A stretch of DNA of 64,000 nt, from the NCBI GenBank assembly GCA_003116975.1, contig BGKB01000044.1:880940-944939 (forward strand), in the 5' to 3' direction. The notes under the pieces were generated by a model, which saw only the letters and a program-made list of their open reading frames with translations, had not been told where the DNA came from and did not search any database. The DNA is from Aurantiochytrium sp. KH105 (lineage: Eukaryota > Sar > Bigyra > Thraustochytrida > Thraustochytriidae). The position numbers and the translations under genes are program-made. Positions 13,104 to 57,444 of this stretch are shown piece by piece. Every line of letters begins with the position of its first letter. The first letter of the stretch is position 1.

Positions 13104-13140
13104 TGCTTCAAGGATTTTTACGTAGAGGATTAGTTGACGG

Positions 13141-13570
13141 AGATTCCCCAGAGGTCAGAAAGAATAGAAAGAAGAAGTTGATTTCAATAAACGTAAAAGA
13201 AATTCCGTTCCGTTGCTAGCACGAAACGGTAAAGTAGGTTGATTGCTTCTCACGCTGCTGCTCGGAGAAAGCTTTGGTGTAGGCCTAGTTCAAAATTCTG
13301 GTGGGTTTCGGTTCTGCCGGCTTCTGGCATCGGGTTTTGTCGCTGCCAGGTCTATTATTCGGCTCAGTGGTCCCAGGGTCGTGACCCTGGTCCATTTCTG
13401 CTATGTAGGTCTATGACTGTACTAAGGTTATTTCGGGTGTTCATACCGATAATGTTCGGTGTGTTGTGCACGCGCGACATAATGTTATTGCGTCGTGTCC
13501 TTCCGACGTTTGTCGTCGGGTGTCTACCTCTCTTATAGCAGTTTCCCGCCTGGCATCAGGTCTTTGGGAA
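13141..13570 (-). repeat. LTR-like repeat, copy 1
   Basis: About 430 bp, closely similar along its whole length to copy 2 and more distantly to copy 3. Shared landmarks are an imperfect palindrome centred on GCTAGC (13205-13229), the block TTCGGTTCTGCCGGCTTCTG, and the perfect dyad CCAGGGTC-GT-GACCCTGG (13373-13390). Only 37 bp separate it from the Gag ATG, so if it is the 5' LTR the leader is very short. Confidence 0.75.
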
Positions 13571-13581
13571 TTTTTTGACAG

Positions 13582-14030
13582 GGAGTCCTCAGAGGTCTGA
13601 AAGAGTAGAAAGAAGAAGTTGAGTTCAATAAACGTAAAAGAAATTCCGTTCCGTGGCTAGCACGAAACGGGAAGGTAGTTTGGTTGCTTCTCACGCTGCT
13701 GCTCGGAGAAAGCTTTGGTGTGGTTCAATATTCTGGTGGGTTTCGGTTCTGCCGGCTTCTGGCATCGGTTTTGGTCGCTGCCAGGTCTATTCGGCTTAGT
13801 GGTCCCAGGGTCGTGACCCTGGTCCATTTCTGCTATGTAGGTCTATGACTGTACTAAGGTTATTTTGGGTGGACACATAGAATAGATCCGGTGTGTTGTG
13901 CACGCGTGGCGTAATGTTCTTTCATCGTGCCCTTCCGACGTTTGTCGTCGGGTGTCTACCTCTCTTATTGCAGTTTCCCGCCTGGCATTAGGTCTTTGGG
14001 AATGTCCACTTCATTATTGTGGATCAATAG
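13582..14030 (-). repeat. LTR-like repeat, copy 2
   Basis: Directly follows copy 1 with only about 11 bp between. It contains the GCTAGC-centred palindrome (13646-13670) and the perfect CCAGGGTC-GT-GACCCTGG dyad (13805-13822). Indels relative to copy 1 are not multiples of three, so the repeat is not coding. Its right end carries the first unit of a 31-bp tandem duplication. Confidence 0.75.
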
Positions 14031-16377: not shown

Positions 16378-17349
16378 TTAGAGGACGTTGGTGAGCTCGG
16401 AGAGGTCGATGTTGGGGTTGGCGGCGAGCTTTGCGACGGCAAGGTCGTAGGCACGCTTGGCGTCCATCTCAACCTTGTAGTAGCCGACGTGCTTGCGGCG
16501 GCCGCGGATCTTGATTTGGGCGACCCAGCGCTGCGTCCGCTTGTACCAGCAAACGCCGCGGTACTTGGAGGTCAGGGTGCGCTGCTTGGGCTTCTCGTCC
16601 TTGTTCGCGGTTGCGGTCGAGGTCTTCTTGGAGGTGGTGGAGCTCGCCGTGGGCGAGATGGACGGGCCATTGGCGCGCTTGAACTCGGAGGTGCCGGGCA
16701 TGACACGTCGGACCTTGGGCGCGCGCGAGGCGGTTTTGCTCGTAGTCGAGGTGGCGGCCGATGGCGGCTTGTACTCCTCGTCGTCCTCGTCGGCGTCGGT
16801 GTGGTCGGTATCCTCGTCGGCGAAGAGCTCGAGAGCGAGCGCCGCGGATGCGCGCTTGCGCTTGCGCGAGGGCATCTGCTGCTGGCTGCTGCCAAAGCTT
16901 TCCTCGAGAAACTCCGGGGTCGGCGACTGAGTGCGAGTGACGTCGCTCGAAGGCGAGGCTGGCAGCTCCCAGTAGGCCTCCGTTTGATATTGTTGCTGGT
17001 GCTGGTGCTGGTGCATGTGCATGTCGTGGTGCTGTGCGAACTGAGGCTGGCCGTAGGCTTGGTGGTAAGGGTCCTCGTTTGCTGGGGCGCCAATGACGTC
17101 GCCGAAGATGTTGTCATCGACGAGAAGGTCGTCGATGGACCTCATGAGCAGGGCATCCTCGTCCTCGAAGTCGATGGCGAGGTTATTGCTCTGCGCCGGA
17201 GCTTGTGCGGGCACGGGCGCGGCCACCGGCGCGGGCGCGGTGGCGGCGACGTTCTCCTGCACGTGGTGCATGTGTCCGACGAATCCTTCCTCGGTCTGGG
17301 GCGGAAACCAAGTGGCGAAGCTGTCGTCCATCAAGCTGTAAGAGTCCAT
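16378..17349 (-). CDS. AP2-domain transcription factor (copy 1)
   Basis: A 323-residue protein read from the ATG at 17349; the open frame extends further upstream but only through a TTG. The start region (MDSYSLMDDSFATWF) is acidic and aromatic like an activation region. The middle is low complexity, with a His/Met/Gln-rich run (about residues 108-120), acidic DEDDEE stretches and basic patches (SRKRKR). The AP2/ERF DNA-binding domain is at residues 261-323, with SKYRGVCWYKRTQRWVAQI, the RKHVGYY turn and the AKRAYDLAVAKL helix, and the protein ends right after it. It is a likely nuclear regulator with unknown targets. It is paralogous to the gene at 27644, which shares the RGVCWYKRT and RKHVGY blocks. 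Confidence 0.9.
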   Translation of the reverse strand: MDSYSLMDDSFATWFPPQTEEGFVGHMHHVQENVAATAPAPVAAPVPAQAPAQSNNLAIDFEDEDALLMRSIDDLLVDDNIFGDVIGAPANEDPYHQAYGQPQFAQHHDMHMHQHQHQQQYQTEAYWELPASPSSDVTRTQSPTPEFLEESFGSSQQQMPSRKRKRASAALALELFADEDTDHTDADEDDEEYKPPSAATSTTSKTASRAPKVRRVMPGTSEFKRANGPSISPTASSTTSKKTSTATANKDEKPKQRTLTSKYRGVCWYKRTQRWVAQIKIRGRRKHVGYYKVEMDAKRAYDLAVAKLAANPNIDLSELTNVL

Positions 17350-17730
17350 TCTCGCTTGGTCTGCGACCTCTACTCTATAGTCTTTGCTGTTTAGCTCTGC
17401 TCTACTTTGCTTCTGCTTCGATGCTCTGTTCCGGGCAGGGCACAGGGCGTCCTTGTTATCAAGGTCCAAAACGATTGAATTGGTCTGTCCGGATGCTGTC
17501 TCGCCGTAAGGGTTTTGGGTTTGCCGCTACGCGCGCCGCGCGGCCACTTCGGCGGCGCCCTTGGCCTCCCTTCTCCCCTATTGCTTCGCAGCGCCCTCCC
17601 TTTATCCCCGTAAGTCAAGTATCCACTCTGCGCACTCGCCCAAACCGCGCTTCTGCCATCCGGCGGTCTAAAAGTCGCCTTCCAGCCTTTCTACTCTGTC
17701 TCTCCAGAGTCCTTTTTCCCCCTTACTCTT

Positions 17731-37195: not shown

Positions 37196-37751
37196 CTTGC
37201 ATGCCGTTCAACCATTTGATATACAGTTGCTGGTTCTTCTGTGCGAAGAGAGATTCGCGACATATCCCAGTCCAGCAAAAACCATGATCACAGGTTACTA
37301 CCGGCGCTCTTTCTAATAAGTTGCTCACATCTATCCGTATATCATTTTGATGACGCGTGTATACGCGGGTCGCGAGAGCGCTTCATGAAGTTATGCATGC
37401 AGCAAGATGCATGCACAAAGTTCATGATCCCAGGTCGAAGCACCTGGCGACTCGCCGTCTCGCATCCATCCCGAGACTCCTCATCGCAGCCCGAGCATCC
37501 CTGCAGGAAGCCAAGCAGACGGGGCCCGCATCGTTGCAGCGAAGAAAGTCCGCCTTCTCCTCGGCCAAAGAGGCCCCTTCGCGCGGCACCTTCCGCAGCG
37601 CGGCGGCACGCTCCGCTCCGGAACGCTGTGTCTTTTGTTGTTGTTGTTGTTGTTATTGTTGTCGTTGTTCACTTCTACCTGGCTACTGCTGGCAGCGAGC
37701 GGCGCGTCCCGGCAGGCAAACTTCTAGAAGCCCGACTTTGCGCGGCGCTCT

Positions 37752-37900
37752 GCGCACTTGCGCGCGCGCATTCCCGACTTGCGGGGCGCGGCGCAAGTGG
37801 CGGAAAAGCGCCGGCCCGGGGCTGCTGACTTCACTATGGCGGGCGCGGCGCAAGTGGGGCGCGGCGGCGGCGCAAGTGCAGAATCCGCGCGCGCAAGTCG
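37752..37900. promoter_or_regulatory. Cluster of GCGCAAGT-core elements upstream of prohibitin-2
   Basis: Six copies of the core (G/C)GCAAGT occur in 150 bp on both strands. Two pairs form a composite: two cores in the same orientation 21 bp apart, with an AAT between them followed by CGCG. One composite is forward at 37871-37900 and one reversed at 37752-37783. Single cores are at 37793-37799 and 37848-37856. The same composite occurs in the WKF/IMPDH promoter. The cluster lies 137-285 bp upstream of the ATG. Regulatory function is inferred from repetition, spacing and position. Confidence 0.6.
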
Positions 37901-38036
37901 AGTATAGCCGCGGAAAAGGCGGCGCGGCGCGGAGGCGGCGGCGGCGCGAAGGAGTGGCTGCAGAGCGAGCAGAGCTCCAGCGTCGCGGACTTGGGCGAGC
38001 GCAGCGGCAGGCAGAGCGGCAGGCAGACGCAGCACG

Positions 38037-39351
38037 ATGGCGGACAAGGCGAAGGAGACGATGGAGAAGATGCGCAACATGAAGATGCCGCAGGGCGGCG
38101 GCGGCGGCGGCCTCGCCAGGGGCGCCGCGGCGCTCATCTTTGGCGGCGGCGCGCTCGCCTTTCTCGGCTACAGCTCGCTGTAAGTGGCGCAGACGCGCGC
38201 GGGCGCGGCGAAGGGGACGGGGCGGGGCAGGGCGGGGACGCGGGGAGGGAGAGCGCGGCCCGCGGCGGGGCGGAGAGGGGAGCTCGCAGAGACGAGCGCG
38301 CAAAACGCAGGCGAAAAAGGCGGCCACCGACCGCGAGGCAGAGCGCGGAAAGATGGATACTCGCCCGCCGAGCGCGCACTCTCTCCCTCCATTTCTCCGG
38401 GCGGGAAGGGCAGAGCCATGGCCGCAGCGCGCACGGTCAATGGAGAGACACTGTGACGAGAAGGGACTGGTCGACTAACGTAATGACTTGCAAAACGCGT
38501 GCTTTCGTCACTCCCGTGACTTTGGAATAACCCAAACCTCTTCTTCTCCGGCACGATTATTGCTATTATGACAACTTCACAGGTTCGATGTGCCCTCGGG
38601 TCACAAGGCCGTCATGTTCAATCGCATCACCGGTCTGCGAGAGCAGACGTACGGTGAAGGTATTCACGCCCGGATCCCATGGTTCGAGTACCCGACCGTG
38701 TACGACGTGCGCACCCGGCCCCGGAACATTTCGTCGCTCACCGGCTCGCGCGATCTGCAGATGGTTAACATTGCGATCCGTGTGCTGCACCGCCCCGACA
38801 GCAGCCACCTGTCGGCCATCCACCGCCAGCTCGGCACCGACTACGATGAGCGTGTTCTTCCCTCGATTGTCAACGAGGTCTGCAAACAGGTTGTCGCCCA
38901 GTTTAACGCGTCCCAGCTCATTACCCAGCGTGAGCAGGTCTCGCAGCTGATCCGAAGGAACCTTATGGTCCGTGCCCAGCACTTTAACATCCTCCTCGAG
39001 GATGTCTCCATCACGGAGCTCAAGTTCGGCCGCGAGTACTCTAGCGCCGTCGAGCGCAAGCAAGTTGCCCAGCAGGAGGCTGAGCGTGCTCGCTTCCTCG
39101 TCGACAAGGCCCTCCAGGACAAGCGCTCCATTGTTATCCGCGCCCAAGGTGAGGCCAAGTCTGCCGAGCTCGTCGGTAAGGCGATCCAGGACAACCCCGG
39201 TTTCATTGAGCTGCGCCGCATCGAGGCCGCCAAGGAGGTCTCCGACACGCTCTCGCGCTCCGCGAACCGCGCTTTCCTCAGTGCCGAGAACCTTATGCTT
39301 GGCCTTGTCGCGCCTTCGCAGAGCGCTGCCGACATTGCCAAGAAGAAGTAA
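38037..39351 (+). CDS. PHB2: Prohibitin-2, two exons
   Basis: Exon 1 is 38037-38179 and exon 2 is 38583-39351; the 403-bp intron (38180-38582) begins GTAAGT and ends TTCACAG. Joined, they give 303 residues (human PHB2 has 299). Exon 1 encodes the Gly-rich N-terminus and hydrophobic anchor (GAAALIFGGGALAFLGYSSL), and the junction reads SSL-FDVPSGHKAVMF, the canonical prohibitin start of the PHB domain. Exon 2 contains GLREQTYGEGIHARIPW and the C-terminal coiled coil (AQQEAERARFLVDKALQ). PHB2 forms ring complexes with PHB1 in the mitochondrial inner membrane, acting in membrane protein quality control and cristae/respiratory chain maintenance. Confidence 0.95.
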
Positions 39352-54395: not shown

Positions 54396-55010
54396 TCAAG
54401 ATTCAGCAGGCGGTGCCACCGAGTCGATTGCGGCAACAATCTGTTTGGCGCGCTTATACTTGGCGCGGAGAGACTTTACCTTGTACTCAAGTTTGGCGCG
54501 CTGTTCCTCATCCGCGGCGGCAGCCTCGCCGAACTTCTTTTCAAGACGACCAATGCGGTCGGCAAGTGTCTGGCCGTCGGCTTCGATGTCCGAAACGATC
54601 TTGGCCGCGTCTGCACGTGCGCGCTGCAGCGCTTGGCCTTGAATGGACTTGAGGTAGTCGAGCACGGCTGTCTGAAAGAGAGACTTCCCCACGGCTTTGC
54701 GGTCGAGCAAGTGCTGCAGAATCCAGATTTGCTGCACCTTGGAGAATTTCCAGGCGTCACGGTGGTTCTTCCACTGCAACAAGTACGCCTCGGCGGCCTT
54801 GGCGCGCTTCAGGAGTCGCTTCTTTTCCGCATCGGCCTTGCGCTTCTCTGCAGCGGCCCTCGCGGCCTGGTTGGCCAGCCTCCTCGCCTCTTCGTCCTTG
54901 ATCTTGGCCTCGCGCCGCTTCCTCTTCTCCTCGCGGTCCGGCTTGGCCTTTTCGCCCGGGTTCTCGGGCTTGGCGCGCTTGCGCTTCTTCGACGTCTGCG
55001 CCTCCGCCAT
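54396..55010 (-). CDS. WKF-domain protein (C7orf50-like)
   Basis: 204 residues from the ATG at 55010. The frame stays open far upstream through promoter sequence, but that part is Arg/Ala/Pro noise. The N-terminal ~75 residues are highly basic (SKKRKRAKPENPGEKAK). The WKF domain follows at about 80-125: AWKFSKVQQIWILQHLLD and the FQTAVLDYLKSIQG helix. The C-terminal third is a coiled coil with KLEYKVKSLRAKYKRAKQIV. WKF proteins, including human C7orf50, are associated with nucleolus and ribosome biogenesis; the molecular role is poorly known. It diverges from IMP dehydrogenase. Confidence 0.88.
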   Translation of the reverse strand: MAEAQTSKKRKRAKPENPGEKAKPDREEKRKRREAKIKDEEARRLANQAARAAAEKRKADAEKKRLLKRAKAAEAYLLQWKNHRDAWKFSKVQQIWILQHLLDRKAVGKSLFQTAVLDYLKSIQGQALQRARADAAKIVSDIEADGQTLADRIGRLEKKFGEAAAADEEQRAKLEYKVKSLRAKYKRAKQIVAAIDSVAPPAES

Positions 55011-55637
55011 CTCGCTCGTCTCGCCGCCGCTCGCGCCCCGCCCGCCCGCCAGCCAGCCAGCCAGCCAACCGGGTCTGCCGCGGCGTGCTCGCGCCGCCTC
55101 CCCAGCGAGAGCGCGCCGCGTCCCGCCTCCTCCTCGGTCCCTGTGGCCACCCACTCGGCGCCCGCCTGCCCTCCGCGCCGGTCCAGCCTGACCGCCGCCT
55201 GCCTGCCTGCTGCTGCCTGCTCGCTCGCTCGCTGGCTTGCTGGCTGCCTGGCCTGCCGGCTCGCCCGCCCGGCTCGGCGGGCCGCCGCCGCGCAGGACCC
55301 GCGCCCGGCTGGCCGCCCGGCCGCCGGGGCCGCGGGCGGGGCGGGCTGGAGCGGGCTCGGCGGGCGGGCTCGGCGGGAGGGCGGGAGGGCGGGAGTCGTT
55401 GGCAACGGGCAGGCGGCGCATTCCGCACTTGGCCGCGCGCGCCGCAAGTGCACAATGCGCGGGCGCAAGTGGGCCGCGCGGAAAGCTGCACTTGCGGCGG
55501 CGCGCCCCGTGTTTGGGTGGCGGCGAAGAACGATCCTCGAGGCCAACTACTTTTTCCGCAGCCACGGTTCGTTCGGCCGGCCAATCAGCCAGCCCAATCC
55601 GCCAACCCGAGCGAGCGACCGAGCGACCGACCGCGCG

Positions 55638-55669
<32 letters not shown>

Positions 55670-55823
55670 GGCCGCGCGAGGAGGAGCGGAGCGGAGCGGA
55701 GCGGAGGAGAGGAGCCGCGGCGCGAGCGCGAGCCCCGGCGACCCAGCCCGAGCGCGGTTGGTCGGCCGGCCGGTCGTTGAGAGACAGACAGGCGAACAGC
55801 AGGTGCGCAGGCACAGGCTCGCG

Positions 55824-55861
<38 letters not shown>

Positions 55862-55902: not shown

Positions 55903-57444
55903 ATGCAGGCGCAACTGAACACCTCGCTCGACCACCTCGGGGGCGATGGATACTCCGCGGAGGAGCTCTTCAACAAGATGGGCCGCGGTACCGCGTACAC
56001 GTACGATGACGTGATCCTCATGCCCGGCCATGTGGGCTTTGGCGTCAACGAAGTGACTCTCGACTCGAAGCTGACCAAGAAGATCAACCTCCGCCTCCCC
56101 TTCGTCTCCTCGCCCATGGACACCGTGACCGAGAGCGAGATGGCCATCAACATGGCCCTCCAGGGCGGCATCGGCATCATCCACTACAACAACACCATCG
56201 AGGAGCAGGCCGCGCTCGTGCGCACCGTCAAGCGCTACAAGAACGGCTTCATCACGGACCCCATCGTTCTCTCCCCGAACCACACCATCGCGGACGTCGA
56301 CCGCATCAAGAGCGAGAACGGCTTTTCCGGCATCCCCATCACCATCGACGGCAAGATGGGCTCGCGGCTGGTTGGCTTCGTGTCGAACCGCGACGTGGAC
56401 TTCCTCGAGGACCGCTCGCGCAAGCTCTCCGAGGTCATGACCACCGACCTCGTCGTCGGTCAGGAGCGCTGCACGCTCTCCGAGGCGAACCTCATTCTCC
56501 GCGAGTCCAAGAAGGGCAAGCTTCCCATTGTCAATGACAACTACGAGCTCATCAGCCTCTGCAGCCGCAACGATCTCAAGAAGAACCGCGACTTTCCCCT
56601 CGCCAGCAAGGATCCCGTCAACAAGCAGCTGCTGGTCGGCGCCGCTCTCAGCACCCGCCCTCACGATCGCGAGCGCCTCCGCGCCCTTGTGCAGCAGGGT
56701 GTTGACTGTGTCGTGATTGATTCCTCGCAGGGTGACTCCATCTACCAGCTCGAGTTCGTCAACGAGATCAAGAAGGAGTATGGCGATGACATCCAGGTCA
56801 TTGGCGGCAACGTTGTCACTTCCTCGCAGTGCCTCCACCTCATCAAGGCCGGCGTCGATGGCCTGCGCATCGGCATGGGCGTTGGCTCCATTTGCACCAC
56901 GCAGGAGGTGTGCGCTGTCGGCCGCGCTCAGGCCACTGCCGTCTACCACACGGCCCGCACGGCCGCCGTCCATGGCGTCCCCATCATTGCCGATGGTGGC
57001 ATTTCTTCCTCGGGCCAGATCACCAAGGCTCTCGCTCTTGGTGCTTCGACTGTCATGATGGGCTCCATGCTTGCCGGATGCGAGGAGAGCCCCGGCGCCT
57101 ACTACTTCCAGGACGGCATCCGCCTGAAAAAGTACCGTGGCATGGGCTCCGTCGAGGCCATGGAGAAGGGCTCCAGCAAGCGCTACTTTGCCGACAAAAA
57201 GAACATTGTCAAGGTTGCCCAGGGTGTCTCTGGCGCCGTCGTCGACAAGGGCTCTGTCTCCCGCTTCCTTCCCTACGTCGCCCAGGGCGTCCGCCATGGC
57301 TTCCAGGACCTTGGCGTCAAGAACATCCCGGAGCTGCACGAGGGTCTCTACGGCGGCTCTGTGCGCTATGAGCTCCGCACCCACGCTGCCCAGCGCGAGG
57401 GCTCCGTGCACGGCCTCTACTCATACGAGAAGCGCCTCTTCTGA
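55903..57444 (+). CDS. IMPDH: Inosine-5'-monophosphate dehydrogenase
   Basis: 513 residues (human enzymes 514) from the ATG at 55903; upstream in-frame sequence is promoter. TIM-barrel enzyme: [14 protein letters not shown] at the N-terminus, [13 protein letters not shown], and a CBS pair in the middle (about 115-230). [18 protein letters not shown] follows, then the catalytic loop [18 protein letters not shown] with the active Cys, [24 protein letters not shown], and [12 protein letters not shown] of the flap. The eukaryotic C-terminal end is [10 protein letters not shown]. It oxidises IMP to XMP with NAD+, the committed step of GTP synthesis, in the cytosol. AATAAA is 10 bp after the stop (57457). 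Confidence 0.97.

Follow-up and report, generated by a model that had tools for sequence, protein, structure and literature searches.

CGCAAGT units at two-turn spacing in promoter regions of Aurantiochytrium sp. KH105, a candidate cis-regulatory array

Sites for the ETS (CCGGAAGTG), NRF1, and Sp1 factors in animal CpG-island promoters are G+C-rich, orientation-free, and placed before housekeeping genes, and yeast ribosomal protein promoters carry tandem Rap1 sites. Spacing peaks between Rap1 and Mcm1 sites in yeast ribosomal protein genes favor a single helical face, and cooperation via TFIID is argued for in that study (PMC6173580). Among stramenopiles, the nearest described case that our literature search found is the PhRiboBox of the oomycete Phytophthora, a 12-nt element present in 68 of 85 ribosomal protein promoters at a median distance of 64 nt from the start codon, upstream of it, which also occurs in translation, transcription, and DNA-replication genes and is found in both orientations at similar rates (PMC4696810). 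The oomycete core elements INR, FPR, and DPEP are described, in the excerpted text, as lying at or just past the start site with a forward bias (PMC3599244). Gene regulation in the thraustochytrid lineage looks poorly charted, and no thraustochytrid promoter element was described by title among the top literature matches when the lineage was searched with promoter, motif, and transcription-factor terms.

Here we describe an element built on the core CGCAAGT, in a 64,000-nt stretch of DNA from Aurantiochytrium sp. KH105 (the window) and across the assembly to which it belongs. CGCAAGT arrays resemble the PhRiboBox, as excerpted, in the growth-gene class and in their freedom of orientation. The two differ in that the excerpted text of that paper mentions neither arrays nor a rule of spacing (PMC4696810), whereas CGCAAGT units follow a spacing of ~21.4 bp. 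The yeast Rap1 system, as excerpted, is similar in its growth-gene promoters and in the spacing of Rap1 and Mcm1 on one helical face, but it has another sequence and two different factors, while CGCAAGT arrays consist of one repeated element with the same pitch in all orientations. INR, FPR, and DPEP are, like the CGCAAGT element, stramenopile promoter elements; as far as the excerpt describes them, they differ from it in that the CGCAAGT element faces either way and forms arrays ahead of coding starts. We rejected identity with an oomycete core element because the orientation bias is missing, both orientations occurring within single promoters and all pair orientations genome-wide, and the DPEP consensus given in the excerpt, SAASMMS, also misfits CAAGTGC, which has T where M is required (PMC3599244). 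The presence of both orientations in one promoter, together with arrays between divergent genes, argues against any directional core promoter element. A whole-word search with extended core words gave no literature match; the bare string CGCAAGT occurs in 2,402 papers. The core words are absent from the text (figure logos apart) of the Phytophthora motif papers PMC11267843, PMC3597505, and PMC4696810, and fragments of them in the text of PMC3520976 and PMC3599244 lie inside unrelated sequences.

Arrays before PHB2 and IMPDH

An earlier note on the window had reported two composites of the same layout and opposite orientation before a prohibitin-2 gene, and both are present, as a forward composite of two units at 37871-37900 (plus strand) and a reverse composite at 37754-37783, with the common layout CGCAAGT-N4-AAT-N-CGCG-N-GCGCAAGT. 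The reverse element had been placed at 37752-37783; the element itself stands, but its true start is 37754, and the earlier coordinate took in two bases too many. Six exact CGCAAGT cores lie in this promoter (37756-, 37777-, 37792+, 37849+, 37871+, and 37892+, the sign giving the strand), and those at 37792 and 37849 are the further cores, at least two, that had been said to lie between the composites. The six cores form a reverse tandem pair of two units at 37754-37783 (minus strand; cores 37756-37762 and 37777-37783, pitch 21 bp), a head-to-head pair at 37777-37798 in which core 37777-37783 (-) and core 37792-37798 (+) are separated by a gap of 8 bp, within the head-to-head peak described below, and a tandem run of three forward cores (37849, 37871, and 37892) at 37849-37898 (plus strand), with pitches of 22 and 21 bp, which holds most of the forward composite. 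The prohibitin-2-like gene (PHB2) occupies 38037-39348 on the plus strand, with its start codon at 38037, 139 bp beyond the end of the last core, and an SPFH/Band 7 exon at 38587-39348; the name prohibitin-2 is that of the earlier note, and the Pfam family is Band 7. Dinucleotide shuffling of 37700-37920 (2,000 shuffles) gave a mean of 0.05 cores (maximum 2) and no 21-bp pairs, versus the six cores and two pairs observed. We rejected an element common to the whole prohibitin family on account of a second prohibitin-like locus (contigs C82 and C94), which has no element beside it among the best similarity matches listed.

A third composite, said to lie in another promoter, was found at 55443-55472 (plus strand; units at 55443 and 55464, pitch 21 bp), and the identity of 22 of 30 positions claimed for all three copies holds for the PHB2 pair and this one. 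It stands in a promoter common to the IMP dehydrogenase gene (IMPDH and CBS domains; 55903-57438, plus strand), downstream of the array, and a divergent WKF-domain gene (54417-55010, minus strand) on the opposite side. The array runs in the order 55427 (-, degenerate), 55443 (+), 55464 (+), and 55490 (-), with a gap of 9 bp, a pitch of 21 bp, and a length of 33 bp. Its fourth unit, the degenerate core at 55427-55433 (minus strand; ACTTGGC on the plus strand), lies 9 bp head-to-head from core 55443 and is an exact core in the other copy of the locus, and core 55464-55470 (+) with core 55490-55496 (-) makes a tail-to-tail pair at 55464-55496, 33 bp overall and within the tail-to-tail peak. All three neighbor arrangements (direct, tail-to-tail, and head-to-head) are found within this single promoter. 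Local dinucleotide shuffles gave a mean of 0.046 cores and one 21-bp pair in 2,000. The stretch that separates the array from the IMPDH start codon, presumably the leader, has short repeats of CCGAGCGAGCGA, AGCC, and GCAG at 55607-55673 and 55823-55859.

The assembly (76.0 Mb in 367 contigs) looks diploid, since most proteasome, CCT, and L7Ae-family matches are paired at near-equal scores. Contig C141 carries a 98% copy of the PHB2 region and a 94% copy of the IMPDH region, and the cores of the PHB2 reverse tandem pair and of the three-core forward run are also present there. The PHB2 copies are separated by two substitutions plus a single indel over 211 bp. Over 131 bp, the IMPDH copies show seven substitutions, and two of these turn the fourth core into an exact one. 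Between the RPN5 copies (90.7% identity over 377 bp), only the variable bases 9-10 differ within the first unit. Across the eight locus pairs compared, 26 of 27 exact cores are kept, including 12 of 12 in the three pairs not chosen by a matching composite (PHB2, IMPDH, and RPN5); the BCAT-like pair and four other pairs were chosen for matching a listed composite. In the BCAT-like pair, whose copies are 86.6% identical, one of the three cores carries a single base change that gives TGCAAGT, a variant seen in phase elsewhere. Core retention between copies is a suggestive sign of constraint, not a test of it. Allele divergence across the assembly ranges from ~2% (the PHB2 region) to ~13% (~240 bp of the BCAT-like promoter). 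Separately, an identical 28-bp composite occurs at C3:347483-347510 and C22:174437-174464, where the nearby flanks do not match.

Frequency, spacing, and orientation across the assembly

Genome-wide counts were compared with those of the same pattern reversed, and they take in both alleles, so that allelic copies inflate them about twofold: 416 versus 2 for direct pairs at exactly 21 bp (CGCAAGT-N14-CGCAAGT), 1,181 versus 16 for direct pairs with N{0,30}, 239 versus 8 for tail-to-tail pairs, 333 versus 10 for head-to-head pairs, and 926 versus 0 for the strict single element CGCAAGTSSRSWATSSSS. The listed places are complete up to contigs C27 for 21-bp direct pairs, C10 for direct pairs with N{0,30}, C24 for tail-to-tail pairs, C16 for head-to-head pairs, and C11 for the strict element. 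Within the window, three 21-bp pairs were observed, and none arose in 100 whole-window shuffles; the single CGCAAGT core shows no clear enrichment across the window (19 versus 14.0 in shuffles, sd 3.5). The reversed-control counts and the shuffles rule out a chance origin, and the feature is neither chance nor local to the window. The 6.05 Mb of contigs C1-C9 hold 88 distinct array or element loci (~14.5 per Mb, off-peak pairs excluded by eye). By rough extrapolation this amounts to ~550 loci per haploid genome and ~5% of genes, taking ~300 genes per Mb, itself a rough figure based on the 60 coding segments predicted across tiles that total 200 kb.

Among the listed places, neighbors stand ~21.4 bp apart center to center, or two helical turns, whether direct, tail-to-tail, or head-to-head. 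In tallies of the first listed places (100 direct, 50 tail-to-tail, and 50 head-to-head), 90 direct pairs fell at 19-23 bp, most commonly at 22 (37 pairs) and 21 (32 pairs), 44 tail-to-tail pairs measured 33-35 bp overall, and 34 head-to-head pairs measured 21-25 bp overall, with a gap of 7-11 bp. A rigid footprint predicts a direct pitch of 21.41 bp, that is, half the sum of the tail-to-tail length and the head-to-head gap, with peak limits of our own choosing; the observed mean was 21.33 bp. A head-to-head gap of ~8 bp had been expected ahead of that count and was recorded only afterwards. The 15-bp palindrome ACTTGCG-A-CGCAAGT lies off the spacing peak at C1:670436, C9:53566, and C15:907097 (among the first 50 head-to-head pairs listed) and is perhaps a repeat family.

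These spacings agree with the earlier proposal of sites paired two helical turns apart, in the 21-bp window pairs as in the genome-wide listings, and with sites in both orientations, which were seen inside single promoters and as pairs genome-wide. The proposal had further taken the composite for the site of a dimeric or paired protein. Pairing at two turns stands, but a special 30-bp two-core dimer element is not supported, since there are three equivalent arrangements and an AAT in each unit. We consider it unlikely that a preformed dimer or two-headed protein reads the 30-bp composite as one site. Such a protein would suit the direct pairs at 21-22 bp, which are the commonest arrangement and in excess over the other two orientations; against it, tail-to-tail and head-to-head peaks fall at the same center distance, which argues against a fixed two-core site, the pitch varies from 19 to 23 bp, and runs of three or more units occur, sampled promoters holding 2 to 10 exact cores each in either orientation (maximum 10, at locus L001). 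Some strict single elements also have no exact-core partner within N{0,30} among the matches listed (e.g., C1:119357 and C1:240798).

If the sampled fractions hold throughout, the in-peak pairs number an estimated ~1,060 direct and ~210 and ~230 of the other two kinds, placing direct pairs ~2.4-fold above the 2:1:1 ratio of random orientation. This excess indicates a tandem preference, and orientation is not fully free. Slippage could conceivably yield head-to-tail repeats of 21 bp, as in a dispersed minisatellite, and either such repeats or mobile-element remnants might lie near genes by happenstance. We regard this origin as very improbable. Slippage cannot make the head-to-head and tail-to-tail peaks, and the single center distance in all three orientations argues against it as the sole cause; a tandem repeat would have head-to-tail copies only, and we found 239 tail-to-tail and 333 head-to-head pairs versus 8 and 10 in the controls. 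The spacers, moreover, vary in G/C while the core and WAT stay constant, and BLAST among 50 loci and the window gave no match of at least 200 bp besides overlapping loci and one allelic pair.

Beyond nearest neighbors, 42 exact and 11 one-mismatch cores lay 41-44 bp from a core in 210 sides, versus 4 + 3, 2 + 0, and 2 + 1 in three control ranges, and a weak excess was seen at 62-65 bp (12 + 2 versus 6 + 3 and 2 + 0, exact plus one-mismatch, in 210 sides). The same number of sides held no exact core and one near core at 26-29 bp, and again none and one at 30-33 bp. Apart from the window, the loci of this count had been picked for 21-bp pairs, so the count at 20-23 bp is not independent; the excess at 41-44 bp was not directly selected for by that choice. 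The counts bear on the main rival to abutting neighbors, helical phasing of the sites on one face towards a common partner, such as a large coactivator, with no contact between neighbors. Two turns are indeed 21.4 bp, and in the excerpted yeast study Rap1 and Mcm1 sites favor one helix side and TFIID cooperation is argued (PMC6173580). A pure phase rule, however, should also permit ~31-32 bp, where the sides were nearly empty; the excess at 41-44 bp, as noted, was no direct product of how the loci were chosen. On balance, phasing alone seems rather unlikely.

The reading that we consider probable is a cis-regulatory array in which one predicted factor per unit would fill adjacent two-turn slots cooperatively and drive growth-gene promoters. 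A sequence-specific factor would occupy each unit in monomeric form, with its contacts to the CGCAAGT core made in the major groove and those to the A/T triplet probably in the minor groove. Bound copies would occupy neighboring slots cooperatively on one helix face, and the bound row would bring the transcription machinery to growth-gene promoters (those for ribosomal proteins, CCT chaperonin, translation initiation, PHB2, IMPDH, and others), with arrays in shared promoters acting in both directions. We infer the cooperativity of the putative factor from the spacing alone. One center distance, despite the different protein faces that would meet, favors simple abutting with weak contacts or DNA-mediated cooperativity. 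A more tentative extension, plausible though somewhat short of an even chance, is that an asymmetric factor sits in a close-packed row at two turns per copy, touching its neighbor in any of the three arrangements, and that the number of filled slots, not their orientation, sets the output.

Sequence form of the unit

Judged from the sequence, each unit is asymmetric, spans ~21 bp, and has the form CGCAAGT-SSRS-WAT within A/T-poor surroundings; the composite is two such units adjacent. The core is followed mostly by G, then by SRS and by WAT at positions 12-14, and most of the remaining positions between about -6 and +20 are depleted of A/T. Among the 96 distinct array cores that the sampled loci supplied, G occupies position 8 in 77% and C in 19%; G/C predominates at positions 9-11, with 22% A at position 10; and A leads at position 13 (66%) and T at position 14 (64%). 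The remaining flank positions are mostly G/C with the choice between the two weakly preferred, and the CGCG between composite cores is likewise mostly A/T-poor filler in which G or C is weakly preferred. The commonest forms at positions 11-14 are GAAT (22/90), CTAT (14/90), and GCAA (9/90). At non-contact positions from -6 to +20, A/T makes up 2-10%, except for 25% at position 10 and 23% at position 15; in the first 400 bp outside the arrays it makes up 29-34%.

The A/T triplet is kept in the 19 cores that have no downstream neighbor (A/T in 84-89% at positions 12-14), so AAT is part of each single unit. Where a side was free of cores, exact or with one mismatch, for 55 bp, A/T was 4-19% at -7 to -1 (26 upstream sides) and ~30% farther out, and the downstream sides (n = 19) showed a modest depletion, 0-16% at positions 16 to 22 versus ~30% farther out. 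This depletion offers a footprint estimate that is independent of spacing, from small samples and with a soft downstream edge.

The 13 one-mismatch cores found in phase were GGCAAGT (4), CGCCAGT (2), TGCAAGT (2), and one each of CCCAAGT, CGTAAGT, CGCAAGG, CGCAAGC, and CACAAGT. An ETS-type core is GGAA, and a bHLH E-box is CANNTG. CGCAAGTG is one letter away from the ETS CGGAAGTG, and a G+C-rich, orientation-free housekeeping setting is common to both; we nevertheless rejected an ETS-type site, as the core here is GCAA and CGGAAGT is absent from the 13 in-phase variants. To our knowledge, neither an A/T triplet nor slot spacing is part of ETS, NRF1, or Sp1 sites. An E-box needs G after CGCAAGT and was rejected as well because, with G in 77% and C in 19% at position 8, CAAGTG is frequent but not required.

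Promoter context and neighboring genes

Composites lay within 1.5 kb upstream of a coding 5' end at 21 of 26 independent loci versus 18.5% of 600 random points, in line with the promoter location first claimed, and in predicted coding sequence at 1 of 26 loci versus 56% of the points (Fisher p 4e-11 for the contrast in context); four loci had no clear gene. These 26 make up the full set of independent loci in the first 30 listed places of the 21-bp pair search, L002, L003, L004, and L025 having been dropped for overlap with L001 and L024; L057 was also dropped, as it has just 28 bp in common with L009 and is hence not its allele. Genes were called with a codon-usage gene finder of our own making, for which the window and tiles served as training data, and the random points were drawn in the window and 20 tiles. 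At the sole locus in predicted coding, L019, the coding call has a low score for its length and is possibly false. In 264 kb (the window and 20 tiles placed without regard to the motif), of which 145 kb is coding, all nine cores with the A/T extension lay outside predicted coding sequence. The nine include four of the window, in the PHB2 and IMPDH promoters, which were the reason that the window was picked; the remainder are four in two RPN5/START promoter copies and one in L044, perhaps by chance. Bare CGCAAGT cores also occur inside predicted genes.

Upstream enrichment (21/26 versus 18.5%) with coding depletion (9/9 extended cores non-coding) is the pattern of a cis-regulatory sequence, and the same nine cores with the 1/26 loci in coding sequence rule out coding constraint. 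Equal frequency in shuffled DNA or inside genes, which the earlier note had named as counting against the element, was not what we found, the whole-window shuffles being free of pairs and the extended cores non-coding. Known non-coding RNA genes beside the arrays were rejected, since Rfam gave no matches at gathering score at 20 of the 26 independent loci. A PDB sequence search with four unannotated ORFs gave no matches.

Ribosomal protein genes beside the sampled composites are RPS12 and RPL10, together with RPL23 and RPS10, which flank one array. The probability of four such genes among 28 coding segments pointing away from composites is ~4e-5 at an assumed base rate of 0.7%, with two of the four on one array. 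Other composites stand beside genes for eIF3e, a BCAT-like aminotransferase, NAD epimerase, GAPDH, a kinase, an acyl-CoA dehydrogenase with cytochrome b5, CK2 beta, a CFA20-domain protein, CCT, a UBR-box protein, RPN5/START, PHB2, and IMPDH/WKF, beside RPEL, ankyrin, PH, GST, and other domains, and beside several genes of no recognised family. Strong CCT/HSP60 matches have a composite or element-like match ~450-900 bp upstream of the domain start on C44/C108 (similarity matches), C11/C18 (tail-to-tail list), C23 (21-bp pair list), and C8 (sampled locus L026). Among the matches listed, which cover C14 and C26 incompletely, no element accompanies CCT/HSP60 on these two contigs, and weak CCT/HSP60 homologues on C2 and at C8:356187 have none; further strong matches lie on contigs beyond the reach of the listings.

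Orientation-free arrays in G+C-rich intergenic DNA might also suit a general promoter-opening factor, the array then being a chromatin or DNA-replication landmark (for an origin or nucleosome-free-region factor) instead of the site of a gene-specific activator. We think this quite unlikely, given that by our rough count ~5% of genes carry arrays and that CCT and ribosomal protein genes recur, suggesting a gene set. For the preferred reading, a cis-regulatory array, an element that counts 926 strict copies, versus zero in the reversed control, provides a direct handle on a putative growth regulon, with possible uses in identifying the factor by DNA affinity, in building strong promoters, and in testing cooperative binding by spacing without fixed orientation.

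The target set is not clean, given shortfalls among proteasome, L7Ae-family, and GTPase genes and loci that front genes of no recognised family. None of eight 20S proteasome genes on C1-C27 has an element among the matches listed, and a general proteasome-gene element was rejected on this count. The listed matches place an element at one of five translation GTPases above 100 bits on C1-C11, namely a lone strict element on C7, and none at the L7Ae-family gene of C4. A tubulin-gene element was rejected because no listed match lies within 1.5 kb of five tubulin genes on C1-C18, four of which stand where the listings are incomplete; an array 2.6 kb upstream of the C3 tubulin gene stands beside CK2 beta (L011).

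Three further observations concern coding and repeated sequence. A strong translation-GTPase match (197 bits) at C32:64041-64694 and C195:33361-34014 has one in-frame TAG in both copies, which may be an in-frame intron or mark a recoded or broken gene. Within the window, 13134-14003 holds a 432-bp unit in two tandem copies that match at 89%, and 16381-17514 (minus strand) encodes a protein with an AP2 DNA-binding domain, just above the Pfam cut-off.
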